This document shows positions 36,058-55,325 of a DNA stretch of 64,000 bases, piece after piece (positions within the stretch are counted from its first letter, which is position 1; each line of letters opens with the position of its first letter). The position numbers and the translations under genes are program-made. The notes below the pieces were generated by a model that was given only the letters and a program-made list of their open reading frames with translations, was not told the origin of the DNA and made no database searches. Source of the DNA: Tannerella forsythia (GTDB taxonomy: Bacteria > Bacteroidota > Bacteroidia > Bacteroidales > Tannerellaceae); the NCBI RefSeq assembly GCF_003860135.1, contig NZ_RQYN01000006.1, positions 1-64,000 of the forward strand. The letters are read 5' to 3'.

Positions 36058-39000
36058 TTATTTAACAACAACTTTCTGTACCATTTGATCGATCTTAACG
36101 ATATATAGTCCTCTCGGAAGCGGAAGCATCATCTCGCCCGCCGAAAGTTGCTGACGGTAAGAGAGTGTACCCATTACGGTATAGATCTGTACCATGACCG
36201 GCCGATCCGTCCGAATATGTACACCGTCTTTGCTGGCCCATACAGCCGCATATTCTTGGATCAACTGGTTCGCCGTAGGCTTGACACCGGAGAATTGGAC
36301 GTTCAGAGGTTCCGTTACATAGCGGAACACGACGGTCATGCTACCGTCAGGGTTCTTTGTCTTCTTCATCCCGCCTTCTTTATCCTGCCATTTGGAACCT
36401 GTTGTGATCTCCAGTTCTTCGAGCGTATATCCTTCGTCAGGAGTAATCTTTATCGTAAAATCTTGTTTTGAGATTACCGAATACATTCCTTTCGGAGGAT
36501 TCGTCTTCGCATGCTTACATTCACTCACGATGACGCTATGAGGCAATTGGATAGGAGGCATATTGCTCGGAATAAATTCGTAGGCTCCTATATCTACACG
36601 ACTGTCATCGATTCGTTCAACTCCTGCCAGATCTTTCACTAGACGGGCACTAATCACAGGAGGATTCCATCCGGCATTACAAGCAGAGCTTCGTGAATCC
36701 GCAAGCCGATAATTTCCAGCAACCATGATTCCCTCCTTATTAAATCCCGGTTTAACAAAATATGGTCTCTGGTAGACATTGCTTCCTGCATTGGTACCTA
36801 TCAGGTTCCATGCGTTGGGAATATCCGCTCCTTCGATTAGACAGAAGCGGTATTCGGTACCAACACCCATATTCACAATATTAGGCAACATCTGCTCTGC
36901 CGTCGTACGATTGTCATAAATAATTGTGTTTAAAGATCTCACTCCGGATGTTTGAGCGTTATATATACCGGCTCCGGATTCTGTAGCATGATTCCCGGAG
37001 ATGGTTACATTCAGTAATTCCGTTTTTCCGCCTTCGTTATAGAGCCCGCCCCCCCGACGAGCTCTGTTACCACTGATCTCGGTATTCATAAATAACGGGC
37101 TTCCTGTTGCACATGTTCCGCGCGACAAGGTATATACGCCGCCACCTTCGTGTGTCGCCGCATTGCCACGGATGATACAATTGACAATCGTCGGCGATCC
37201 GTTGTCGTTAAAGATACCCGCACCTTGCTTAGCCATACCTCCGGTGATGATGAAACCGTCCCAGCGCGCACCACGACTGACTCCGCAGCCTCCTTCGGGA
37301 TAAGAGCGGTTTCCATTGATCCGGATAACAGCAGAGTCTTTTCCTTGTAAGGTCGTCGGATGATCCACAAAGTTACGCTCCTCAATCGCCGACTCTGTAC
37401 CACCGAAGCCTCCGTAGACTTCCACACTGTCATAAGCCATCACATACGATCCGCCGGTGGGCGTGTAGACACCTTCGGCCACCCATATCCGGTCACCCTT
37501 GCCGGCGGCTGCCAGAGCCGTATCGAGGTTCAGGAAGGCATCTTTCCACGAAAGGCCGGTCTGTAGTCCGGAGGTTGATCGTTTATTCACGAAGAAGTCG
37601 ATTGTTTTTCCTTGTACGGCGATCGTTCTTTTCGCAATCATTTCGCACCGCATCGTGTCGCCCGCAGCATAGCTGACGCCTTTTTCGGAGACTTTCAGTT
37701 CAATCTGTTTTTGGCCGATGGTTGTCCATGTTACACTCGGAGTGACATCCGTTGATGAGGCCGGTGTTCCTTCTGCGAATGTCCATGTATATCCGGAGAT
37801 GGACGATGAAGCATCTTTGACGGCAAAAGTCTGCGGCACATTGATCTTAGCGGGTTTGCCCAAAGGAGTACGGAGAATCGTAATCATATCCGGGTCGTAA
37901 CATCCCAAGATAAGTTTTTGTGCTGTAGGAGTTGTAGGAAGTCCTGAGACAACAGCTTTTATCGGATGTGTGAATTTGTCGGCATAAGAAGACGCGTCGG
38001 CCAGCGTATAGGTCGTTCCGTCTATGGTTGCGGTGCCCGGTACGACGACGATTCGTCCGTAAGGAGCGTCATGCTGCGGGTCCGTACTGACTTTAAATTT
38101 CCGTTCGGGTTCACTGATGAGTGTAATAAACTTATTGCGCAATGGATCGCCGTTAGGAGCAGGATTTAAGGAATCTTTCTCCAAAAACATCTCATCCTTT
38201 ATATGCGCCGTACCGCTGAGATTAAACACCGAGGCCGGTCCGCCGTTCTTGTCGGCCGCCATGAATATGCCGTTACCCACAGCTGCTTTGTTGTTATGTA
38301 TCGCTGCGCGTCCGAGGATGTTTACGATCGGAGCATTTGTTGCATGTGATCCGATATAGATTCCTCCCCCCTTGTTTAAGGCTTGATTTTCGCTGATTTC
38401 TCCACCGGTCATATAAAGCACAGCCTGATTATTTAAACCAATACCGGCAGCTGTCGGAGCCTTATTGTAAGCAATTCGTCCGCCATATATACGGATGGTG
38501 TCGGTCAGACCGGAAGCATGTATTCCGCCACTGCCTCTTTCTGCTGTATTATAACTGACTTCTCCGCCTTTGAGGTGTAGGGTTGCGTGCGATGCCATGG
38601 CAATACCTCCCTGTGTCGTTTTCGCTGCGTTATGATTAATACGTCCGCCATTCATGTACAGATATCCTTGAGCCGTCGATGTTCCTGAGAGGGCGACACC
38701 TCCACCAAACGTTCCGGACTCATTATGGTGGATAGAGGCATTATTGTTCATATAAATCCATCCTCCCCGATTGGCAACTCCTCCAGCCGCTTTTCTTGAT
38801 TTATTGTTGTATATGGCAGCATTGTTGTTCATAAGAAGTTTAGAGCTTGCACCTCCACTTGCGCTATTACTGAATAAACTGATTCCGCCTCCGAGCACGA
38901 ACGCTTCGTTATCATGTATGGCCGAGTTCCCGTTCATTTCAATCGTTGCGTTGGTATAGCCCAAAAAACCGCCACCATTGTTTGCGGCACAGTGATGAAT

Positions 39001-39822
39001 AGATGCACTCCCATTCATGATCAGTTTCCTTTCTCGTTGTGTGATGCCTCCTCCTCCATTTGTACAGTAACATCCGTAGATGGAAGCATTGTCGTTCATC
39101 ACTACTTCTGATCCATGCCCACTGAAGATGCCTCCGGCGTCATTGTCTCTTGATTTCGACATACATCCTGCGATGGTCGAATTGCCATTCATTATGACGA
39201 TAGAGTTGGGTCTGATGCTACAAATACCACCTGCGACCGTTCCTGAAAGCGGACCGGATGTATAATAAGAGCATAACCGGATCATAGAGCCGTTGTTGAG
39301 AGTTAACTTTCCGGAGTTTCGTATACCGGCACAATCGCCCGAACCGGTGTTGTGGTTGTTTTGTAATACCGTACCTTCGTTTAGTGTCAGTGTCGCACCC
39401 TCATTCACAAGGATAAGTGGTTTTTCTGCAATAAGTCCGCTATTTATACGGGTTGTATCTGCATGTACCGTTAGTTCCTGATTATCCCAGATGGCTCCTC
39501 CGTCCAGTACAATGTTCTCCATGATAAGGGTGGCATTGTTTTGTACGATAACCAGATGCGTCAGGAGTGCTGCGCTGCGTTTGAGCGTAAAGTTCCCTCC
39601 CGCGCTTTTCAACACGATGTGCTGGCCGCTGTTTACGGTTACAGCCGTCGTCATACTGTGGTTCGTCGTGGCTTCGATCGTAGTGGGGATTCCCGTTGTG
39701 GGGACGGCAGCCACGGCCGCGCTCAGTGTCGGGTAGTCCGTCGTTCCGATGCGGAACTGTGCCTGTGCGGTGTAAACTATCCCTAAGCAGAGAGTAAGAA
39801 TCCCAAGTAATTTTGTTTTCAT
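36058..39822 (-). CDS. Large beta-helix surface protein with T9SS sorting domain
   Basis: 1254 residues. A signal peptide (MKTKLLGILTLCLGIVYTAQA) is followed by a right-handed beta-helix of many short repeats such as NNNASIHHN and MNGNSAIHDNEA, each with GGG turns, to about residue 530. A PKD-like module (SGYTWTFAEGTPAS) follows around 660-720. A second beta-helix begins at KDAFLNLDTALAAAGKGD with VYGGFGGTE and GNRARRGGGLYNEGG. The end, GLYIVKIDQMVQKVVVK, is a T9SS tail. Such proteins are surface adhesins or polysaccharide lyase-like scaffolds; no catalytic site was recognised. It has its own promoter and terminator. Confidence 0.88.
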   Translation of the reverse strand: MKTKLLGILTLCLGIVYTAQAQFRIGTTDYPTLSAAVAAVPTTGIPTTIEATTNHSMTTAVTVNSGQHIVLKSAGGNFTLKRSAALLTHLVIVQNNATLIMENIVLDGGAIWDNQELTVHADTTRINSGLIAEKPLILVNEGATLTLNEGTVLQNNHNTGSGDCAGIRNSGKLTLNNGSMIRLCSYYTSGPLSGTVAGGICSIRPNSIVIMNGNSTIAGCMSKSRDNDAGGIFSGHGSEVVMNDNASIYGCYCTNGGGGITQRERKLIMNGSASIHHCAANNGGGFLGYTNATIEMNGNSAIHDNEAFVLGGGISLFSNSASGGASSKLLMNNNAAIYNNKSRKAAGGVANRGGWIYMNNNASIHHNESGTFGGGVALSGTSTAQGYLYMNGGRINHNAAKTTQGGIAMASHATLHLKGGEVSYNTAERGSGGIHASGLTDTIRIYGGRIAYNKAPTAAGIGLNNQAVLYMTGGEISENQALNKGGGIYIGSHATNAPIVNILGRAAIHNNKAAVGNGIFMAADKNGGPASVFNLSGTAHIKDEMFLEKDSLNPAPNGDPLRNKFITLISEPERKFKVSTDPQHDAPYGRIVVVPGTATIDGTTYTLADASSYADKFTHPIKAVVSGLPTTPTAQKLILGCYDPDMITILRTPLGKPAKINVPQTFAVKDASSSISGYTWTFAEGTPASSTDVTPSVTWTTIGQKQIELKVSEKGVSYAAGDTMRCEMIAKRTIAVQGKTIDFFVNKRSTSGLQTGLSWKDAFLNLDTALAAAGKGDRIWVAEGVYTPTGGSYVMAYDSVEVYGGFGGTESAIEERNFVDHPTTLQGKDSAVIRINGNRSYPEGGCGVSRGARWDGFIITGGMAKQGAGIFNDNGSPTIVNCIIRGNAATHEGGGVYTLSRGTCATGSPLFMNTEISGNRARRGGGLYNEGGKTELLNVTISGNHATESGAGIYNAQTSGVRSLNTIIYDNRTTAEQMLPNIVNMGVGTEYRFCLIEGADIPNAWNLIGTNAGSNVYQRPYFVKPGFNKEGIMVAGNYRLADSRSSACNAGWNPPVISARLVKDLAGVERIDDSRVDIGAYEFIPSNMPPIQLPHSVIVSECKHAKTNPPKGMYSVISKQDFTIKITPDEGYTLEELEITTGSKWQDKEGGMKKTKNPDGSMTVVFRYVTEPLNVQFSGVKPTANQLIQEYAAVWASKDGVHIRTDRPVMVQIYTVMGTLSYRQQLSAGEMMLPLPRGLYIVKIDQMVQKVVVK

Positions 39823-40384: not shown

Positions 40385-42040
40385 ATGAGAGCACAAAGAA
40401 AAAAAGGAGGGCTGAAGGTACATGCCGTATCCGGAAGCCATGTGGTTTTGCTGGGCATTCATTTGCCCGAAGAGGAGTGCGAGGGGTTGCTCGGCTTTTC
40501 GGTTTTGCGGGAAGACCATACCGAGGGGGAGAGGTATTATCTGAAAGCGTCGAAAGTTTTTGAGGAGACCGACCCGAAGCTCAAACCCGGCACGCAGTAT
40601 TCCACGCACAAGTTTCCCATTCAGAGTTTCCAGTGGGCCGACTATTCGGCCAAGCCGGGATATGCCTACACCTACGAGGTATCTGCCCTGAAGGGGACGC
40701 CGGCCGATTTAACGGTCTATGCCACCGTGCGGGTGCCGGTCCGTACGGAGAAAGAGGAGGGCGCGGGGCACAATGTCTTTTTCAACAGAGGGTCGGCCGC
40801 CTCGCAGGAATATGTGCGGCGGTTCGGCGATGTGTCGCCGAAGGATGTGCCGGACAACCGGGCGTTCGAATGGCTCTCGCGCGGGGCCTACGAAGCGCTG
40901 GTGGGTTTTGTGGAGTCGTGCGGGCCGGAGCACAGCCTGCGGATTGCGGCCTACGAGTTTCATTACCGGCCTTTTCTCGAAGTGATCGGGAAAGCGATGG
41001 AGCGGGGAGTGGACGTGCGGATTGTTTACGACGGGCGGAAGGAGTATCCGCGCCTGATCAACGAAGCGGCCATCCGCGAAACGGGGCTTGCCTCCTGTTG
41101 CACGCCCCGCCTCAACGGCAAATCCTACATCTCGCACAATAAATTTATCCTGAAGCTCGAAAGAGGCCGTCCGGTGTCGGTATGGACGGGCGGGATGAAT
41201 TTTTCGGAAGGAGGCATTTTCGGACATTCCAACGTGGCGCATGTCGTCAACAATCCCGCCATTGCCGAGCGGTACGCACGCTATTGGGAGGCGTTGCGAA
41301 GCGACCTCGAGAACGGGCCGATGAAGAAACGGGTGGAAGAGATCACGCCGGCGTTCGCTTTGCCGCTCCGGGAGGAGGAAACGGCGGTCTTCAGCCCGCG
41401 CACCGGCCTGGAGGTGCTGGAGAATTATGCCGGTATGGCACGGTCGGCCAGGCATGCGTTGTTTATGACGTTCGCTTTCGGGATGAACGAAGAGTTCAGG
41501 AAGGTGTATGAAACCGCACGCACCTCATTGCGCTATGCACTTATGGAGAAAGCGTGCATGGCCGGGAAAGACAGGGAGAAATTCGAAAGAGAGAAGAAGA
41601 AGATCGAAGCGATCCGGCGCAAGAAAGAGAATGTGTTCGCCATCGGCAATACGATCCGTACGAATCGTTTCGACGGATGGCTCCGGGAGCGGCTCACGGG
41701 ATTGAACTCCAACGTGAAATACATCCACAACAAGTTCATGCTCATCGATCCGCTGGGCAGGAATCCCATCGTAGTTACCGGTTCGGCCAATTTCAGCGTC
41801 GCCTCCACGAAGAACAACGACGAGAATATGGTGATCGTCCGCGGCAACCGGAGAGTGGCCGACATCTATCTGGGCGAATACATGAGGCTGTTCAGCCACT
41901 ACTCGTTCCGCGAATCGCTGCAATGGCGCGACCCCCTCGAAAAACCGAAGTACCTGAGAACCGACGACTGGTGGAAAGACTATTTCCGGGACAATGCACG
42001 GGGAGCACGGAGAAAATATTTCGCTCAGGTCAGCGAATAA
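40385..42040 (+). CDS. Phospholipase D-like protein with two HKD motifs
   Basis: 551 residues. Two PLD-type halves are seen: SHNKFILKLE with GGMNFSEGG at about residues 255-280, and the canonical IHNKFMLID with GSANFSVAS at about 445-470. In the first half the Asp of HxKx4D is not in place, so the site may be asymmetric. PLD-fold enzymes cleave phosphodiesters (lipids or nucleic acid). No signal peptide. The gene is markedly GC-richer (about 60-63% in the lines counted at 40801 and 41281) than its neighbours (about 40% in ruvC at 42841), a sign of transfer. A start codon is clear at 40385, preceded by AT-rich DNA. Confidence 0.82.
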   Translation: MRAQRKKGGLKVHAVSGSHVVLLGIHLPEEECEGLLGFSVLREDHTEGERYYLKASKVFEETDPKLKPGTQYSTHKFPIQSFQWADYSAKPGYAYTYEVSALKGTPADLTVYATVRVPVRTEKEEGAGHNVFFNRGSAASQEYVRRFGDVSPKDVPDNRAFEWLSRGAYEALVGFVESCGPEHSLRIAAYEFHYRPFLEVIGKAMERGVDVRIVYDGRKEYPRLINEAAIRETGLASCCTPRLNGKSYISHNKFILKLERGRPVSVWTGGMNFSEGGIFGHSNVAHVVNNPAIAERYARYWEALRSDLENGPMKKRVEEITPAFALPLREEETAVFSPRTGLEVLENYAGMARSARHALFMTFAFGMNEEFRKVYETARTSLRYALMEKACMAGKDREKFEREKKKIEAIRRKKENVFAIGNTIRTNRFDGWLRERLTGLNSNVKYIHNKFMLIDPLGRNPIVVTGSANFSVASTKNNDENMVIVRGNRRVADIYLGEYMRLFSHYSFRESLQWRDPLEKPKYLRTDDWWKDYFRDNARGARRKYFAQVSE

Positions 42041-43293: not shown

Positions 43294-44628
43294 TTATACT
43301 ACGCCTTGTGCCATCATCGCGCGGGCTACTTTCATAAACCCTGCAATGTTCGCCCCTTTCACATAGTTGATATATTTGCCTTCGCGACCGTGGAGCACGC
43401 ACTGTTCGTGGATGCTGCTCATGATCTGATGCAGTTTCTCGTCTACTTCCGATGCCGGCCAAGAGATATGCATGGCATTCTGCGTCATTTCCAGTCCCGA
43501 TGTAGCCACACCGCCTGCATTCACCGCTTTACCCGGAGCAAACAGACGGTTGTTATGTACAAACAAGTCGACTGCTTCGGCCGTACAACCCATGTTCGAG
43601 ATCTCGGCCACGCAAAGCGTATCGTTGTCGATCAATGCACGCGCGTCTTCAGCCCCTAATTCGTTCTGTGTAGCACACGGCAATGCGATATCAACCTTTT
43701 GTTCCCACGGACGTTTGCCTGCGAAGAACGTCGCTTCCTTAAATTCGTCGGCATAAGGAGCAACGATGTCATTTCCGGAAGCACGTAACTCAAGCATATA
43801 ATCGATTTTTTTGCCGGAGATCCCTGTCGGATCGTAAATGTAACCGTCAGGACCGGAGATCGTCACAACTTTTGCACCCAGTTCGGTTGCTTTGGTGGCA
43901 GCACCCCAAGCTACGTTTCCGAAGCCGGAAATCGCAACTGTCTTGCCTTGAATATCGTGTCCGTGCTCACGCAACATTTGATGTACGAAATAAAGTCCGC
44001 CGAAACCGGTTGCTTCGGGACGTAGGATCGATCCTCCGAATTCCATGCCTTTTCCGGTCATCGTTCCCGTATTTTCACGAGCTAATTTTTTGTACATACC
44101 ATAGAGGTAGCCTACTTCACGTGCTCCTACACCGATATCACCCGCCGGAACATCCGTGTCCGGACCGATATTGCGCCAGAGCTCCAGCATGAACGACTGA
44201 CAGAAGCGCATTACTTCGGCATCGCTACGTCCGCGGAATGCAAAATCTGCTCCTCCCTTTCCGCCTCCCATGGGCAGTGTGGTCAAAGCATTTTTGAAAG
44301 TCTGCTCGAAGCCAAGGAATTTCAGGATCGAGAGGTTTACCGACGGATGAAAACGCAGTCCGCCTTTATACGGGCCAATCGCATTATTAAATTGTACGCG
44401 GTAACCGAGGTTGACATGTACTTCGCCCTGATCGTCGACCCAGGGCACACGGAATGTAAAAATACGGTCGGGTTCTACTAACCGTTCGATGATTTTTGCT
44501 TTTTCAAATTCCGGATGTTGGTTGTAAACATCTTCAATCGAAATAAGCACTTCTTTGACAGCCTGCAAGTATTCCTTCTCTCCGGGATGCTTGGCTTCCA
44601 ATGATAATAAGATTTCTTCGGTCTTCAT
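43294..44628 (-). CDS. gdhA: Glutamate dehydrogenase (NADP-type, hexameric)
   Basis: 444 residues, small hexameric GDH. It interconverts glutamate with 2-oxoglutarate and ammonia. Seen: GPYKGGLRFHPSVN, the catalytic Lys region LPMGGGKGGADF, DIGVGAREVGYLYGMYKK, and the dinucleotide loop AISGFGNVAWGAA. It is a single-gene unit with its own promoter, ending convergent to ruvC (41 bases between stops). The role may be either assimilation or amino-acid fermentation. Confidence 0.96.
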   Translation of the reverse strand: MKTEEILLSLEAKHPGEKEYLQAVKEVLISIEDVYNQHPEFEKAKIIERLVEPDRIFTFRVPWVDDQGEVHVNLGYRVQFNNAIGPYKGGLRFHPSVNLSILKFLGFEQTFKNALTTLPMGGGKGGADFAFRGRSDAEVMRFCQSFMLELWRNIGPDTDVPAGDIGVGAREVGYLYGMYKKLARENTGTMTGKGMEFGGSILRPEATGFGGLYFVHQMLREHGHDIQGKTVAISGFGNVAWGAATKATELGAKVVTISGPDGYIYDPTGISGKKIDYMLELRASGNDIVAPYADEFKEATFFAGKRPWEQKVDIALPCATQNELGAEDARALIDNDTLCVAEISNMGCTAEAVDLFVHNNRLFAPGKAVNAGGVATSGLEMTQNAMHISWPASEVDEKLHQIMSSIHEQCVLHGREGKYINYVKGANIAGFMKVARAMMAQGVV

Positions 44629-44651
44629 GTTTTTTTATTTTTAAAAGTCCA

Positions 44652-44659
44652 CAAATGTA
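44652..44659 (-). promoter_or_regulatory. -7 box (TACATTTG) for gdhA
   Basis: TACATTTG on the minus strand 23 bases before the gdhA ATG. Confidence 0.6.
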
Positions 44660-44692
44660 AGGAGTTTTTACGGTATACCAAATATTTTTCTT

Positions 44693-44700
44693 TAATTTTG
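44693..44700 (+). promoter_or_regulatory. -7 box (TAATTTTG) for the receiver/ATP-grasp gene
   Basis: TAATTTTG 37 bases before the ATG at 44738. The two divergent -7 boxes (this one and that of gdhA) are only 33 bases apart, so their promoters overlap. Confidence 0.5.
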
Positions 44701-44737
44701 GCGGGCTGTCCCGCAACAGGTCGGGAAACCCAATTGT

Positions 44738-47713
44738 ATGAGTAAAATAAAGGACTTTCAAAAAGTTGCATTCAAAGATGTTTCGTTTGCAAACCTGATG
44801 AATAAGCGTATATATAATGTATTGCTGATTGCAACGGAATACGATACGTTTATGCTCGAAGATGACGGGCGAGTAGACGAGCAGATTTTTAATGAATACA
44901 TGTCGCTGAGCCTGCGTTATCCGCCGCGATTTACACAAGTTTCGACCGAAGAAGAGGCTTTGCGGGAGCTGGCCAATCGGACATTCGAACTGATCATTTT
45001 CATGCCGAATATGATGGAGGCCGATATCTTCGGAGCGCCGAAAGAAATTAAGCAACAGTTTCCATCCATCCCGATTGTGGTCTTAACGCCTTTCTCGAAA
45101 GAAGTAACAAGGCGTGTGGCGAATGAAGACTTAAGCGTCATCGATTACGTCTTTAGCTGGCTGGGCAATTCGGATCTGCTTTTGGCCATCATCAAACTGA
45201 TTGAAGACAATATGAACGCGCCGGACGATACTGCCAGTGTGGGGGTACAGATCATTCTGCTGGTCGAGGACTCGATACGCTTCTATTCTTCGGCGCTGCC
45301 GCATCTTTACAAATTCGTGCTGGAACAAAGTCAGGAATTTGCCAAGGAGGCACTCAATGACCATCAGCGGACGCTCCGGATGCGTGGGCGGCCGAAAATC
45401 AAGCTGGCACGCACATACGAAGAAGCAGTACATATTTATGACCAGTATCGCGAACATATTCTCGGTATCGTCTCCGACATGAGCTTTAACCGTGAAGGAA
45501 AAAAAGATGCGCTGGCAGGGTACCGTTTCGGGCAATATGTGCGCGAAACAGGGCCGGTAACGCCGATTATCATGGAATCGTCCGAATCGAGCAATCGCGA
45601 ATACGCCCGGAAGCTGGGGGCTTCATTTATCGATAAGAACTCCAAGAGCTATCCGCAGGATTTGCGTGAAAAGATTACGAGACGCTTCGGCTTTGGCGAT
45701 TTTGTCATTCTGGAACCTGAAACGAAAGAGGAGATCATGCGTATCAAAGACCTGAAAGGATTACAGCATCAGATCTTTAATATTCCGGAACATTCGCTCC
45801 GGTATCATCTTTCGCGCAATCATTTTTCTCGTTTCTTCTATTCGCGCGCGATGTTCCCACCGGCTGAACTGCTGAAACATATTGATGTGAACATGTGCAC
45901 GGACTTGAACGACGCCCGTCAACTTATTTTCGATGTCATCGTGCAGTATCGGCAGATGAAGAACTCCGGTGTCGTGGCTGTTTATCAAAAAGAACGGTTT
46001 GACGAGTACAGCAACTTTGCGCGCATCGGTGAAGGATCACTGGGAGGTAAAGGGCGCGGACTGGCTTTTATTGGCGCGATGATCAAACGCTATCCGATGT
46101 TGGATCAAGAAAATTTTCCGGTCAACATCCCTAAAACGGTCGTACTCTGCACCGATATTTTCGATGAGTTTATGGAGACCAACCGTCTATATCCGCTGGC
46201 ATTAAGTGATATCAGCAACGAGGAAATCCTCAGCCGTTTCTTGGAAGCGGAACTTCCGCAGCGATTGGTAGACGATCTGATGGCTTTTTTCGAAGTGGTG
46301 AAGCGTCCGATTGCGGTGCGCTCGTCAAGTCTGCTCGAAGATGCCCATTACCAGCCGTTCGCCGGTGTCTATTCGACGTATATGGTGCCTAATATGGACG
46401 ATAAGAACGAGATGCTTCGGGCGGTGAGCGATGCGGTCAAAGGAGTTTATGCGTCTGTGTTTTATCGTGACAGTAAGGCTTATATGACAGCCACCAGCAA
46501 CCTGATCGATCAGGAAAAAATGGCCGTCGTGCTTCAGGAAGTCGTTGGCGTACGGTTTAACGACCGTCTCTATCCGTTGATTAGCGGAGTGGCACGCTCG
46601 CTGAACTTTTACCCCATCGGCAAGGAGAAGGCCGAAGACGGTATTGCCAACATTGCTTTGGGATTGGGCAAATACATCGTCGACGGTGGCGTTACGTTGC
46701 GCTTTTCGCCTCGTCATCCTCGCAATATCTTGCAGATGAGCACGACCGAATTTGCCTTGAAGGAGACGCAGACGCGTTTTCTGGCATTGGATATGAAGAA
46801 TATGCCAACCCGTTTTTCGGTCGACGACTCGTTTAATTTGATGCGTCTGGGAGTTAAAGATGCCGATGAGGACGGGGCATTGAGGTTTATCACCTCGACT
46901 TACGAGCCTCATGATCATATTATCCGTGATGGCTATTACCCCGGCGGACGGAAAATCCTGTCGTTTGCGAATATTCTGCAACATGACATGTTCCCGCTGG
47001 CTAAAACGCTTGATACCCTGCTCCAGATTGGTCAGAAAGAAATGGGACGTCCGGTCGAGATTGAATTCGCAGTCAATATTCATCCGCAGAAACGTGATCG
47101 TGCGTCGTTTTATCTGCTGCAAATCCGCCCGATTGTCGATCAAAAAGAAATGATTGACGAAGACCTGAAGCGCGTAGCACCCGAAGATACGATTCTCTGG
47201 TCATCCAACTCACTGGGACACGGTATCTCGAACGATGTGCAAGATGTGTTATATGTCAAGACGGCATCATTCGATTCGGCCCGGACACAAACGATTGCAG
47301 CACAAATCGAGGCGATCAATCGCGAATTCTCCGAGAGAGGATGCTATTATGTCTTGGTCGGTCCCGGTCGGTGGGGTAGTCATGACCCGTGGCTCGGTAT
47401 TCCGGTGAAATGGCCTCATATCAGTCATGCGCGGGTGATCGTAGAGTGCAGTTTGGATCATTACCGGATTGATCCGAGTCAGGGAACACATTTCTTTCAG
47501 AATCTGACATCGTGCGGCGCAGGCTATTTTACGATTCATCCCTCGTTTGGCGGAGGGACGTTCGACGAAGCGTTTCTGAATGCGCAACCGGCTGTACGCG
47601 AGACAGAGTATCTGCGGCTTGTACATTTCGAGCATCCGATAACGATCAAAATAGACGGTCGCCAAGGGCTGGGCGTCGTGATGAAACCGACTTGCACGGA
47701 GGAAGGAGCTTAA
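44738..47713 (+). CDS. Double receiver domain fused to a PPDK/PEP-synthase ATP-grasp domain
   Basis: 991 residues. Residues ~27-158 look like a receiver domain that has lost the phospho-Asp (FMPNM in its place). Residues ~170-325 look like an intact one with a large insertion: acidic pair Glu177-Asp178 (LLVEDS), phospho-acceptor candidate Asp247 (IVSDMS), Ser281 and Lys300. From ~425 on there is a pyruvate-phosphate-dikinase N-terminal ATP-grasp domain (GSLGGKGRGLAF, RSSSLLEDA, LQIRPIVDQKE). The phosphohistidine domain and the PEP/pyruvate barrel are missing. So it cannot be a normal PEP synthase; annotation as such would be misleading. It may be a response-regulated phosphotransferase (inference). 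Next gene is convergent. Confidence 0.75.
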   Translation: MSKIKDFQKVAFKDVSFANLMNKRIYNVLLIATEYDTFMLEDDGRVDEQIFNEYMSLSLRYPPRFTQVSTEEEALRELANRTFELIIFMPNMMEADIFGAPKEIKQQFPSIPIVVLTPFSKEVTRRVANEDLSVIDYVFSWLGNSDLLLAIIKLIEDNMNAPDDTASVGVQIILLVEDSIRFYSSALPHLYKFVLEQSQEFAKEALNDHQRTLRMRGRPKIKLARTYEEAVHIYDQYREHILGIVSDMSFNREGKKDALAGYRFGQYVRETGPVTPIIMESSESSNREYARKLGASFIDKNSKSYPQDLREKITRRFGFGDFVILEPETKEEIMRIKDLKGLQHQIFNIPEHSLRYHLSRNHFSRFFYSRAMFPPAELLKHIDVNMCTDLNDARQLIFDVIVQYRQMKNSGVVAVYQKERFDEYSNFARIGEGSLGGKGRGLAFIGAMIKRYPMLDQENFPVNIPKTVVLCTDIFDEFMETNRLYPLALSDISNEEILSRFLEAELPQRLVDDLMAFFEVVKRPIAVRSSSLLEDAHYQPFAGVYSTYMVPNMDDKNEMLRAVSDAVKGVYASVFYRDSKAYMTATSNLIDQEKMAVVLQEVVGVRFNDRLYPLISGVARSLNFYPIGKEKAEDGIANIALGLGKYIVDGGVTLRFSPRHPRNILQMSTTEFALKETQTRFLALDMKNMPTRFSVDDSFNLMRLGVKDADEDGALRFITSTYEPHDHIIRDGYYPGGRKILSFANILQHDMFPLAKTLDTLLQIGQKEMGRPVEIEFAVNIHPQKRDRASFYLLQIRPIVDQKEMIDEDLKRVAPEDTILWSSNSLGHGISNDVQDVLYVKTASFDSARTQTIAAQIEAINREFSERGCYYVLVGPGRWGSHDPWLGIPVKWPHISHARVIVECSLDHYRIDPSQGTHFFQNLTSCGAGYFTIHPSFGGGTFDEAFLNAQPAVRETEYLRLVHFEHPITIKIDGRQGLGVVMKPTCTEEGA

Positions 47714-49692: not shown

Positions 49693-50214
49693 CTACTCCC
49701 AGCCGGGATTATTAGGCGCTAACGCGGGATTTAACACGATCTCATCGGTAGGCACTTGATATAAGTAATATTTGTCTAACCATCCTTTACCTTCTTTCAG
49801 CGGGTCTGCCCAAAGATAGATATACCCTTCCGTCTTCGATTTGGTAGGCAGATGGGTGTTTTCGTCCCAGAGCGACTCTTTCACCCGTGATTGCTCGATC
49901 CACATCCCCAATTGTTGTTTGTTGACGAACCAAGGCGCGACTTTCCAGCGACGAATATCGTCGAATCCGAATCCTTCGCCCATCAGCTCAATGATTCGTT
50001 CTCTTCGTATCTCCCAAAGAACCGGATTCACGTTCGGATCTCTTTTGGGGTCGAAGTTCGCATCAATCTCGGCGACGTTCATACCGGCCACACCGGCTCT
50101 TTTGCGAAGCTTGTTGATCGTCTTGTCCGCAATCGCCTGATCAAACTGCCCTTGTTCCCATTTGCATTCGGCATAATTCAAGAGTACTTCTTCTATTGTA
50201 TCTTTCTCTTTCAT
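49693..50214 (-). pseudogene. C-terminal remnant of a RagB/SusD outer-membrane lipoprotein
   Basis: Only 173 codons remain, against ~500-600 in intact SusD proteins. The preserved part matches the C-terminus of the SusD_RagB type: EEVLLNYAECKWEQGQFDQA, INKLRKRAGV, RRERIIELMGEGFGFDDIRRW and the closing NPALAPNNPGWE. There is no signal peptide or N-terminal half, and a stop codon lies six codons before the first Met. It belongs to a different SusD subtype from the intact neighbour, so it is the leftover of a second glycan-uptake pair, not a duplication of the adjacent one. Confidence 0.85.
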
Positions 50215-50636: not shown

Positions 50637-52289
50637 TTAGAAGTTTCCTGCAGGGGTATCCCACCAAAGACGCGTAGCGATATTGTCTTTGCCGCCACGT
50701 GCTTCGAGGATTTTTACACCCGAGTCATATCCCGGTCTGTTAAAGCTTTTCTCGCTCTGGCAGAACGGCAGACGACGGATACCGAGTGTTGTCAGCTCAG
50801 GGAACGCGCTTTTGTTCGCAATGATCGGGAAGAGCTTCGGATAGCCTGTACGACGATATTCGCTCCATGCGTTCAATCCTTCAGGGAATCCGGCGATCCA
50901 CTTCTGCGTGATAATCTGTTGCAGCTTCTGTTCGTTGGTTCCGTTGGCCATAAATTTCACGGGAACGTCGTTCATTCCTTTAATGTTCAAGGCTGGGTTA
51001 TGCGGATCTACGTAGTCGGCAGCCAGTGTGGTGCCTTCAACGTAGGTTTCATAATCGGCCGAAACCTTATAGTCTTCGAACGAAACACGGATTCCTTCCT
51101 TGTAGAAGTTTTCGGCCGTTCCCTTCATGGCCCATCCGCGCAGTGCGCCTTCGGCACGAAGGAAATACGACTCGGCACGCTTCATAATCGGTAGCGGATA
51201 GTCGGTCGACATCGGGTTGGTTCCGTCTGTGCTAACCATCGGGATCGAGTACATCTTATATTCACCGGCCGACGGAACTTCGAAACCGTTGCGAACGCCG
51301 TAGATCTTGCCGATCGAGTTCGTTTCCTTGCCGTCCTTGTCTTTGATATCTCCCTTATTCATCCATCCTACGGGCAAGGCCATTTTAACCAGACGAGGGT
51401 CATTGTAGCCCTTCAAGATCGACTCGAACGAAGCGCCAATGCTACAGTCGTTATAATCGCGGCAGATTACCATCAGCGGGTTACGTGTATTCTCGTCTTT
51501 TACTTCGATATTGACTTTCTCCAACACACCATAGGGGTTAGCTACGGCTGCTTCGGCTTCTTTCTTTGCCAGATCGGGCGCAACTTTTACGACGCGCATA
51601 GCCAGACGCAGACGCAACGTATTGGCAAACTGCAACCAGGTAGTGTGGCTCTTGCCGCACATCAGGTCGAAGTTCAAACGGGCAGCCACATCGCCATTTT
51701 TCTGAACAAATGCGGTCAAGCGTTGTGTCGCATCGGCCAGATCTTCGAAAAACGATTTGTAGATAGCCTCTTCCGAATCGTATTCGATAAAGATTCCTCC
51801 TTTTACGGCTTTCGAATATGGCATTGGGCCATACGTGTCGACGGCTTTCGACATACCGGCCACTTTCAGGATCTTGGCGATGGCTACGTAATCATCGGCC
51901 GTCTGTGTTTCCAGCAAATTCACACACGGTTTCATCACGTGCAGGAAATAATCTCTGAATCCCTGATTGTTCCAGCCTTCCACCATAACGTACTGGCTGT
52001 TGTTATTATTCGCAGCGAACGGAGTCGGGATAGCCAGATAGCCGGAATACAAGTCGGCATTGAGGTTTTGGATCAGCTGATATTCCCAGTTTCCGTTTGT
52101 TTGATTGTAATAGATGGAACGCTGCGCTTCCTGCATGAAGGAGCCGACTTGCTGAGCCTGCGAAGAGGTCAGTCCGGTCGGGTCTGTATTGAGTTCTTCA
52201 AAATTGTTGGTACATGCCGTTGTGCCGAGTACCATGATGGCGGCTGCCAGCAGACCGTTCTTCAGATTGAATTTATTGATTGTTTTCAT
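50637..52289 (-). CDS. SusD-like surface glycan-binding lipoprotein
   Basis: 550 residues. The N-terminus MKTINKFNLKNGLLAAAIMVLGTTAC is a lipoprotein signal with the Cys near residue 26; NNFEELNTDPTG follows, typical of the SusD-like_2 subgroup. The rest shows the helical TPR-like SusD pattern (KILKVAGMSKAVDTYGPMPYS, LRLRLAMRVVK, and IITQKWIAGFPEGLNAWSEYRRTGYP). It caps the SusC channel and hands it a glycan or peptide. susC is 18 bases upstream on the same strand, so they are cotranscribed. Confidence 0.93.
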   Translation of the reverse strand: MKTINKFNLKNGLLAAAIMVLGTTACTNNFEELNTDPTGLTSSQAQQVGSFMQEAQRSIYYNQTNGNWEYQLIQNLNADLYSGYLAIPTPFAANNNNSQYVMVEGWNNQGFRDYFLHVMKPCVNLLETQTADDYVAIAKILKVAGMSKAVDTYGPMPYSKAVKGGIFIEYDSEEAIYKSFFEDLADATQRLTAFVQKNGDVAARLNFDLMCGKSHTTWLQFANTLRLRLAMRVVKVAPDLAKKEAEAAVANPYGVLEKVNIEVKDENTRNPLMVICRDYNDCSIGASFESILKGYNDPRLVKMALPVGWMNKGDIKDKDGKETNSIGKIYGVRNGFEVPSAGEYKMYSIPMVSTDGTNPMSTDYPLPIMKRAESYFLRAEGALRGWAMKGTAENFYKEGIRVSFEDYKVSADYETYVEGTTLAADYVDPHNPALNIKGMNDVPVKFMANGTNEQKLQQIITQKWIAGFPEGLNAWSEYRRTGYPKLFPIIANKSAFPELTTLGIRRLPFCQSEKSFNRPGYDSGVKILEARGGKDNIATRLWWDTPAGNF

Positions 52290-52307
52290 ATATACGATTG
52301 CTTTATG

Positions 52308-55300
52308 TTAGAATGTTGCTTTCAAGTTAATACCAAAACTGCGTGTAGCGGGCAGCGCGAAGTAGTTCGATCCGGAGTAACCGTTTGACGTAGACATCGA
52401 CACTTCGGGATCGGACGGCGCGTCTTTGTAAAGGAAGAACAAGTTACGCCCGATCAAGCTTACGCCAAGGTCTTTGCCGGCACCCAGCAGATTGCGGAAA
52501 GCGTAACCGATCGACAACTCGCGCAGGCGGAAGTTCGTAGCAGAATAAACGTAGTAAGCTCCGCCTTTCTCTCTTTGTCCGATGGAACGATAGAATGCTC
52601 CGGCGTCGACTTTCGTGCCGTTACCGAGGTCTACTCCTCCGTTGTCGCGTGCGTCGGCCGAGTTCTGCGATACACCGTATGCGTCGAGCGTAGCTTGCGT
52701 CAGGTCTACAAAGTTTCCGCCGATGCGTCCGTCGATGAGGAAGTAGAGTTGAAGGTCTTTATAGTTGAATGAGTTGCTCCATCCCAGATTCCACTTCGGA
52801 TTCACGTTGCCGACGAACTCTTTATCTTTCGAAACAAGAGGAACACCGTTTTCATCTACTTTAATCACGCCATTTTCATCGCGTACGACGGTTTTCGAAT
52901 ACAGGTCACCGTACGATCCGCCTTCTACGAGACGCATGTCATAGCCTCTCAAGCTTCCGAGCCATACGTGAGTCAGACGGTTTTCTTTCGCTACGTCTTG
53001 ACGGTCGTCCAGCTTCTTAATAACGTTGTCGTTGTATGAGAGGTTGAATGAAGTTTTCCATGAGAGATCAGCTGTAATGGGTTGTCTCCAGCTCATGGTT
53101 GTTTCGAAACCGGTGTTCTGGATGTCGCCGGCATTAAAATAGTAGTTGCTGTATCCGGTCGCGGACGAAGCTTCCATACTGAAGTATTGGTTCGTATTGT
53201 TCGTCTTGTAGTAGGTGAAATCCATCTCGAAGCGATTATCGAACATCGAGAGATCGAACCCGAACTCCATCGATTTCAGTTTCTCAGGCTTCATTTCGGT
53301 AAAAGGAACGCTTGTGTTGAAATCGACCGAACCGTTACGGAACTTATGCGTCGGATTGGTGATATATGCAGGCATGTCGTTACCTACTACAGAATACGAA
53401 GCGCGTGCCTTCAACAGATTAAATGCTTCGGGCAGAGTCGTCATTTCGTTGATCAATGCCGTCAATCCGAACGACGGATAGAAGTACGATACGTTCGGTG
53501 TGTACGAAAGGGTCGATGACCAGTCGTTACGTCCCGTCACGTCAAGATAAAGCATGTCTTTGTATCCGATCTGTGCCGTACCGAACACACTGTTGAGACG
53601 TTTCTGCGTTTTCCAACGTTTGTTCTCCGATCCGTTCTTCGATCCGTTTGCGATCTGGAAGTAGTTCGGGATGTAGATGTCGCCGCCACCGGCTGCGATG
53701 ATTCCCGTTTCTTTGAGGTCTGTAAAGCTCGTTCCGACCGAAGCTGTCACACTCCACGCATCGAAAGTTTTGTTGAAGTTGGCCATCAAGTCGCCGTAGA
53801 ACTGGCGGCTGTCGTCGCGTTCCTGACGGTATTCGCCGTTTACGTTGTGCAATGTGGTCGAAGTAGAAGCGTAAATCTTCCGTTCATAAAGATCGGCAAT
53901 GCGGTCGTAGTTCAAACGTCCCTGAACGTTCAGGTAGTCCGTAATGTTGTAGCGGATGCTTGCCGAAGCCATCATACGGTCGCGTTTCTCGGTATGCGGA
54001 TTGCGGTGCAGCACCCAATACGGGTTGGCGCTGAAATCCTGATTTACCTCGCGATACCATTGTTGAACGGGATAACCCTTCACATCGTCGTACTTTTCAA
54101 ATTCGTTTTTGTATTGACGGAAGTCACCGTTAGCCGGGAACGTATAGAGTCCGGTCAAAGGGTTGCGATATTGTCCCGGCTCGTGACGGTTCCGGCCTTT
54201 CTGGATGATGTAATTCAGCGAGGCATTAACCGTTACTTTGTTGTCAAACAACTTGAATGTTTCTTTAGCCATCATGTTGTGGCGGGTAAACGTATTAGTC
54301 GGCATGATACCGCTTGCCGACGTGTTGGCATACGAAATGTAGCTTTGGGTCTTTTCCGATCCTCCGCTGATGGATATGGAGTTGATCGTGGTCATTCCCG
54401 TGCGGAAGAACTCATCGAGGCGGTTCGCTCCTTTGGCTTCGCCGCTGATTTTCTCGCCCCAGCTGTCTTGCGCCAGCGCGCCCGAACCGGATACGGCAGC
54501 TCCATACGTGCTTTGCAGCTTCGGAGCGTCTAAGGTTGTTTCGAACGTCGTATTGCTCGATACGTCTACACGCATGCTTCCTACCGATCCTTTCTTGGTG
54601 GTAATCATCACCACGCCGTTGGCCGCCATACTTCCGTACAGAGCCGCAGCCGAAGCACCTTTTAAGACGTTGATGCTCGCGATGTCGTCGGGGTTAAGGT
54701 TCGACAGAGCGTCTCCTCCATCACGTCCGCCATACTCGCCTTCCATCTGTGTCGTTGTCGAGTTGGCCATCGGAATTCCGTCGATTACGATCAGCGGCTG
54801 GTTGTTTCCCTGCGCCGATTTGTTTCCGCGGATCAACAGTTTCGACGATCCGCCCGCACCGGTAGAGTTCGGAGTGATGACCAAACCTGCCGTTTTACCC
54901 TGCAAGCTGTTGATCAGATTCGTCTCCTTAGCACGGGTCAATTCGCCGCCGCCTACTTGCTGCGTCGCGTAAGTCAAGCTCTTCGCTTTACGCTCGAGAC
55001 CCATGGCCGTAACCACCACTTCGTTAATTTTGATGGACGAAGAAGCCAGCGACACATTGATCACCGTACGTTCTCCTACTGTTTCTTCATGAGTTTCAAG
55101 ACCCACATAAGCGAACTGTAGCACATCGTTCGCATTCACATCAATAGTATAATGACCGTCCAGGTCTGTAATGACACCGTTCGTCGTTCCTTTCACCACA
55201 ACGGTTGCTCCGATCAACGGCTCGTTCGTATCGGCTTCTTTCACGACGCCGCTCACTTTCTTTTGTGCCAGCAGCACGTTTGTGCACAAAAAGAACAGCA

Positions 55301-55325
55301 CAAACATAAATAGATGTTTATTCAT
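52308..55325 (-). CDS. SusC/RagA TonB-linked outer-membrane transporter
   Basis: 1005 residues. A signal peptide (MNKHLFMFVLFFLCTNVLLAQ) leads into a carboxypeptidase-regulatory-like domain (GVVKEADTNEPLIGATVVV, residues ~25-105). Then comes the plug with the SusC marks INEVVVTAMGLERKAKS and LLIRGNKSAQGNNQPLIVIDGIPM. A 22-strand type barrel ends in the aromatic signal TRSFGINLKATF. With SusD it imports oligomers powered by TonB. A promoter lies 48 bases upstream. The flanking sulfatases point to a sulfated glycan; glycoside hydrolases and a sensor are absent from the window. Confidence 0.95.
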   Translation of the reverse strand: MNKHLFMFVLFFLCTNVLLAQKKVSGVVKEADTNEPLIGATVVVKGTTNGVITDLDGHYTIDVNANDVLQFAYVGLETHEETVGERTVINVSLASSSIKINEVVVTAMGLERKAKSLTYATQQVGGGELTRAKETNLINSLQGKTAGLVITPNSTGAGGSSKLLIRGNKSAQGNNQPLIVIDGIPMANSTTTQMEGEYGGRDGGDALSNLNPDDIASINVLKGASAAALYGSMAANGVVMITTKKGSVGSMRVDVSSNTTFETTLDAPKLQSTYGAAVSGSGALAQDSWGEKISGEAKGANRLDEFFRTGMTTINSISISGGSEKTQSYISYANTSASGIMPTNTFTRHNMMAKETFKLFDNKVTVNASLNYIIQKGRNRHEPGQYRNPLTGLYTFPANGDFRQYKNEFEKYDDVKGYPVQQWYREVNQDFSANPYWVLHRNPHTEKRDRMMASASIRYNITDYLNVQGRLNYDRIADLYERKIYASTSTTLHNVNGEYRQERDDSRQFYGDLMANFNKTFDAWSVTASVGTSFTDLKETGIIAAGGGDIYIPNYFQIANGSKNGSENKRWKTQKRLNSVFGTAQIGYKDMLYLDVTGRNDWSSTLSYTPNVSYFYPSFGLTALINEMTTLPEAFNLLKARASYSVVGNDMPAYITNPTHKFRNGSVDFNTSVPFTEMKPEKLKSMEFGFDLSMFDNRFEMDFTYYKTNNTNQYFSMEASSATGYSNYYFNAGDIQNTGFETTMSWRQPITADLSWKTSFNLSYNDNVIKKLDDRQDVAKENRLTHVWLGSLRGYDMRLVEGGSYGDLYSKTVVRDENGVIKVDENGVPLVSKDKEFVGNVNPKWNLGWSNSFNYKDLQLYFLIDGRIGGNFVDLTQATLDAYGVSQNSADARDNGGVDLGNGTKVDAGAFYRSIGQREKGGAYYVYSATNFRLRELSIGYAFRNLLGAGKDLGVSLIGRNLFFLYKDAPSDPEVSMSTSNGYSGSNYFALPATRSFGINLKATF

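Follow-up and report, generated by a model that had tools for sequence, protein, structure and literature searches.

PEP synthase (PEPS) and PPDK join an ATP-grasp domain (PF01326) to a His domain (PF00391) and a PEP/pyruvate-binding barrel. Rifampin phosphotransferase (RPH) adds to its ATP-grasp a canonical His domain and a domain that binds rifampin, and HpeI, a split ATP-grasp subunit, relies on a separate subunit for its part in the catabolism of aromatic compounds. Tandem-receiver regulators of the PleD type contain two receivers, one of them degenerate, and a GGDEF output, and GlnE/GlnD form the control system of glutamine synthetase. Glutamate dehydrogenase (GDH) is one of the main routes by which gut and oral Bacteroidota assimilate ammonia, and the control of its activity is a long-standing question: Baggio & Morrison (1996) reported GDH activity in B. 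thetaiotaomicron to be dependent on one or more trans-acting genes downstream of gdhA. No later identification of such a gene was found in the literature searched.

The window, which is the whole 64,000-nucleotide stretch of Tannerella forsythia DNA that was analysed, carries a 2,976-bp gene whose intact reading frame encodes a protein of 991 residues, next to a divergent GDH gene (Table 1). Truncation or decay to a pseudogene was excluded, as the frame is open and the ends are conserved in many genomes. The nearest named match, from T. forsythia ATCC 43037, is 96% identical over the whole protein and 95% identical over the 245-residue C-terminal part, and homologues are carried by 30 of 41 relatives. 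A Pfam scan assigned residues 434–809 to PPDK_N (E = 1e-46) and matched Response_reg weakly in two stretches, under the curated cut-off. The AF2 model (73 sequences, mean pLDDT 82.5) is composed of two (β/α)5 receivers, a helical linker, the ATP-grasp domain and a further C-terminal domain; in Foldseek searches the top matches were RPH and PPDK for the ATP-grasp part and tandem-receiver PleD structures for the N-terminus. Plasmid records beyond the Bacteroidota gave partial ATP-grasp matches only, and literature searches on this domain architecture returned nothing relevant.

Table 1 Features of the GDH-linked locus, in window coordinates
Feature	Coordinates	Strand	Residues	Basis or remark
gdhA, NADP-type glutamate dehydrogenase, divergent neighbour	43294..44628	-		Pfam ELFV_dehydrog
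Intergenic region separating the divergent gene pair	44629..44737	.		109 bp
Whole protein: REC1 (dead), REC2 (intact), linker, ATP-grasp (PPDK_N), conserved C-terminal domain	44738..47713	+	991 aa	
Pseudo-receiver REC1	44816..45238	+	27–167	AF2 fold; residues in 130 homologues
Intact receiver REC2	45251..45685	+	172–316	AF2 fold; E177, D178, D247, S281, K300
ATP-grasp, PPDK_N type	46016..47152	+	about 427–805	Pfam E = 1e-46; PPDK/PEPS alignment; conservation
C-terminal domain	47171..47692	+	about 812–985	No Pfam family; invariant residues
Codon of invariant His918	47489..47491	+	918	Candidate phosphate acceptor (putative role)

Residue conservation was scored across 130 full-length homologues with 34.7–100% identity. 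REC1 and REC2 both adopt the receiver fold, and the residues of a response regulator (acidic pair, phospho-Asp, Thr/Ser and Lys) are complete in REC2 and missing from REC1. At position 32 of REC1, where the acidic pair is expected, the homologues have Ala, Ser, Cys or Thr; no Asp stands at the end of β3, and the end of β5 is mostly Ser, Cys, Ile or Val, not Lys. The domain has an invariant W141 and a conserved YD.F.LE.DGR..E motif. In REC2, E177, D247, S281 and K300 are present in 130 of 130 homologues and D178 in 128. An earlier note, made by reading the DNA alone, had described a first receiver devoid of phospho-Asp and a second retaining exactly these five residues; checked in the 130 homologues, that residue reading proved correct, and the structure prediction it had proposed as a check contains both folds, with PleD matches. 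The tandem arrangement with one degenerate member resembles PleD-type regulators (fold matches at E about 1e-6), whose output is GGDEF, whereas here it is an ATP-grasp domain. In two homologous loci (L027 and L030), the N-terminus has one or several copies of a sensor-like repeat, R.KEL..IN....I..A.S.EE.L..I...LP..WQYP..T..RI.Y, fused ahead of the receivers.

The ATP-grasp domain has an intact ATP site. Residues K438, R528, E774, E776, Q795 and R797 line up with ATP-site residues of PEPS and PPDK, namely K22, R92, D321, E323, Q335 and R337 in PPDK numbering. The first five are found in all 130 homologues, and R797 is Arg in 125 and Lys in 5, so that the ATP-binding residues, whose loss the note had named as evidence against its reading, are kept. 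The protein shares with PEPS and PPDK matching ATP-site residues and the succession of an ATP-grasp and a mixed α/β domain, but it has no PEP/pyruvate-binding barrel, the chain stopping after the 180-residue C-terminal domain, and no PF00391 His domain detectable by sequence; it also differs in its two leading receivers and its linkage to GDH. RPH, the best Foldseek match of the full model (5hv1, E = 1.7e-11), likewise has an ATP-grasp but no receivers. HpeI (9goj, E = 6.7e-9) is comparable as a stand-alone PPDK_N-type ATP-grasp, but lacks receivers and a C-terminal domain of this kind.

The C-terminal domain contains nine invariant residues: R878, W879, D883, E903, S914, H918, F919, F920 and Y930. 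Its signature, G877-R-W-G, D883, E903, S914-x-G-x-H918-F-F and Y930, is almost unchanged at 27–30% identity, and H918 is present in 130 of 130 full-length members and in all variants. Modelled alone, the domain has a confident fold (pLDDT 88, pTM 0.87). Pfam returned neither PF00391 nor any other family up to E = 10, and when its profile was set against those of 29 His domains from the phylum, hhalign gave probabilities below 1%, no better than reversed controls; an ordinary PF00391 domain was rejected on these sequence comparisons. Searches of PDB sequences with the C-terminal profile gave chance matches only. A fold search against 350,542 PDB chains gave PPDK (1kbl) as the best match, a weak one (probability 0.57, E = 0.089, TM 0.35). 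In our own comparison, the order of strands and helices resembles that of the PPDK His domain, with His918 at or just ahead of the start of a helix, in the loop that the model predicts with the lowest confidence. A remote homology to the His domain is only hinted at by these modelled folds. Because the His-domain profile comparison was negative, Pfam was blank and prediction of the loop around it was poor, His918 is treated as a candidate acceptor only. The view that nothing but the ATP-grasp remained of the dikinase thus stood as regards the barrel and a PF00391 domain recognizable by sequence, and gave way as regards the further conserved domain.

The ATP-grasp and C-terminal domains form a core common to three architectures in the Bacteroidota: the two-receiver form of about 990 residues, the core alone (about 580 residues) and a form of about 1060 residues with a different N-terminus. 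Since this pair is the stable core of a family of its own, the protein is not the truncated PEP synthase it had been taken for, and generic annotations as 'PEP/pyruvate-binding protein' conceal a distinct signalling family. Relatives of the 1060-residue form lie in GDH-IIa clusters (L182:305-3487, L183:5646-8837 and L189:3346-6525). The L182 copy, the one scanned of this form, has a C-terminal nucleotidyltransferase (NTP_transf_2/MntA-like) domain, possibly a second GDH-modifying activity that would recall GlnE by analogy. In G031:C24 and G038:C47 (L021 and L022), gdh comes after a tandem pair of paralogues on the same strand, one of them with 37–38% identity to the window protein, and in L193–L195 a single cluster holds the family gene twice and a GDH gene two or three times.

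The neighbouring gdhA is the sole GDH gene of this 99.98%-complete Tannerella genome, and the region between the two genes presumably harbours the promoters of both. The window's own gene order DUF4286, ruvC, gdhA, family gene recurs in an annotated P. distasonis record. There the family gene is annotated 'PEP/pyruvate-binding domain-containing protein', and 3.5 kb further lies another GDH. In 22 of 28 loci that are the best matches of an even sample of the Bacteroidota, a GDH lies within 600 bp of the family gene. The corresponding figure is 26 of 59 for non-identical close relatives, and when flanks of 3.4 kb were required a GDH fell inside them in 27 of 50; about half of the close Bacteroidales relatives have no GDH within a few kilobases. 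Random placement would give about 0.2% adjacency and P of about 1e-54, a value that ignores shared descent and is hence too small. No GDH was seen at 30 loci of canonical PEP-utilizers proteins, the flanks of which are short. The genes are variously divergent, convergent or on the same strand with GDH upstream or downstream, which indicates that the linkage survives rearrangement. It also follows subtype across three GDH subfamilies: receiver-bearing forms pair with GDH-I or IIb, and the receiver-less core and 1060-residue forms with GDH-IIa. Despite shared descent, the changed arrangements and the subtype pairing argue for function. Support for the link with GDH is good, but what adjacent genes show is functional coupling and not a physical target.

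Two loci (L194 and L195) contain a cluster in the order gdh, family protein, PAS/HisKA_3 histidine kinase, LuxR-type regulator, gdh, second copy of the family protein and third GDH; the kinase and regulator domains were confirmed in L194 and assigned in L195 by position and sequence start. These genes are suggestive of phosphorylation of REC2 by a histidine kinase.

The locus also bears on the observations made in B. thetaiotaomicron. A 3-kb segment downstream of gdhA reportedly restored GDH activity in E. coli when supplied in trans, with gdhA transcription unchanged; the reported size of about 3 kb compares with 2,976 bp here. In B. graminisolvens and B. pyogenes, whose gdhA orthologues are 91–94% identical to a provisional B. 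thetaiotaomicron GdhA query sequence, the family gene lies directly downstream of gdhA, convergent and 84–298 bp away. A 97% relative has the order gdh2, family gene, catalase-like gene (assigned by eye), gdhA, and in other Bacteroides at least 5 kb of other genes lie between gdhA and the family gene. The trans-acting gene or genes reported in 1996 resemble the family gene in location, next to or near gdhA, and in the effect on GDH activity. Read from these relatives of B. thetaiotaomicron, the family gene is a strong candidate for the 1996 gene. This identification is plausible and not proven, since in the nearest relatives other genes can separate it from gdhA. With a specific candidate gene, the control of GDH activity in Bacteroides becomes directly testable.

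The recurrent position beside a GDH gene, together with the receivers and an ATP-using module, indicates that the protein is probably a GDH regulator that had escaped identification. The full scheme we favour, with about even confidence, is that of a dedicated, signal-controlled regulator of the neighbouring GDH, in which the signal would run from a kinase through REC2, the ATP-grasp and the C-terminal domain to GDH. A histidine kinase would phosphorylate D247 of REC2; the REC1–REC2 pair, with REC1 probably a dimerization or relay module, would switch the ATP-grasp; and this would pass phosphate from ATP to the C-terminal domain, most likely onto His918 or alternatively onto another residue of that domain. 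The C-terminal domain could then deliver the phosphate to GDH or gate GDH by binding. GDH activity would be set after translation, presumably by activation. From the sequence data we infer GDH as the target, the phosphoryl route, His918 as the acceptor and the activating sign, and the residues predicted to be key are D247, R528 and H918. As a dedicated, signal-responsive modifier of a nitrogen-assimilation enzyme, such a protein would be analogous to GlnE/GlnD, a parallel extended by the nucleotidyltransferase domain of the 1060-residue variant, but it is unrelated to them in sequence and differs in chemistry and target. More tentatively, and a little short of even confidence, GDHs throughout the Bacteroidota may be switched covalently or allosterically by dedicated ATP-grasp phosphotransferases with a new acceptor domain (GRWG...SxGxHFF), wired to two-component signalling and with a partner subtype for each GDH subfamily.

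Several other explanations were weighed against this scheme. GDH might be gated allosterically by a non-catalytic regulator, with the ATP-grasp sensing ATP/AMP (energy charge), REC2 sensing the kinase and no phosphate being transferred. The GDH linkage, the lack of any His domain recognized by Pfam or profile comparison and a pseudo-receiver suggestive of protein–protein roles would suit this reading, yet every residue of the ATP site used for phosphoryl transfer in PPDK and PEPS is kept, and a separate domain with an invariant set of His, Ser, Asp, Arg and Glu exceeds what ATP sensing needs; we regard it as unlikely. Slightly less likely still is a role in metabolism, in which the protein would be an enzyme, a dikinase resembling PEP synthase, whose substrate is some small metabolite from the glutamate/2-oxoglutarate node and whose acceptor or catalytic part is the C-terminal domain. 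An ATP-grasp of the PEPS/RPH type and the existence of split PEPS-like enzymes such as HpeI, itself a fold match, speak for it, and the GDH linkage is compatible with substrate sharing; but the protein is without a PEP/pyruvate-type barrel or recognizable substrate domain, two receivers would be unusual on an enzyme of primary metabolism, and pairing with three GDH subfamilies points at GDH itself.

The earlier note had proposed a two-component-controlled phosphotransferase acting on an unknown partner in trans. Two-component control is plausible, given REC2, the ATP site and the PAS–HisKA_3 kinase of the gdh cluster, and for the partner the neighbour-encoded GDH is now a strong candidate. That the phosphate passes instead to a separate phosphohistidine protein is very improbable, even though REC2 and the ATP-grasp are intact and phenylphosphate synthase and HpeH/HpeI offer two-subunit precedents: the search for a stand-alone PEP-utilizers protein that the note had suggested found none above cut-off in the 99.98%-complete genome, where only the full-length PPDK carries PF00391, and the protein itself already supplies, in cis, a conserved C-terminal domain that includes an invariant His. 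The 17-bit match of PF00391 on C163 falls within a large protein of unrelated kind. Members of the family that are not beside a GDH gene would fit a merely incidental linkage, or one reflecting shared transcriptional control only, with the protein serving another pathway. This, too, has little probability, as the linkage holds across arrangements, subtypes and classes, at the P value given above with its neglect of shared descent, and canonical PEP-utilizers loci, on their short flanks, show no GDH.

Elsewhere in the window, a fragment at 49693-50214 (minus strand) matches SusD_RagB over its last half alone (profile positions 163–297 of 297); it is what is left of a truncated SusD, next to a SusC/SusD pair that is intact (50637-55325). 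A 551-residue protein with PLD-like domains in two stretches is encoded at 40385-42040 (plus strand). The 1254-residue protein encoded at 36058-39822 (minus strand) is repetitive, of the 'NNG(G)GI' type, matches PKD and DUF6383 no more than weakly, and is probably a surface protein.
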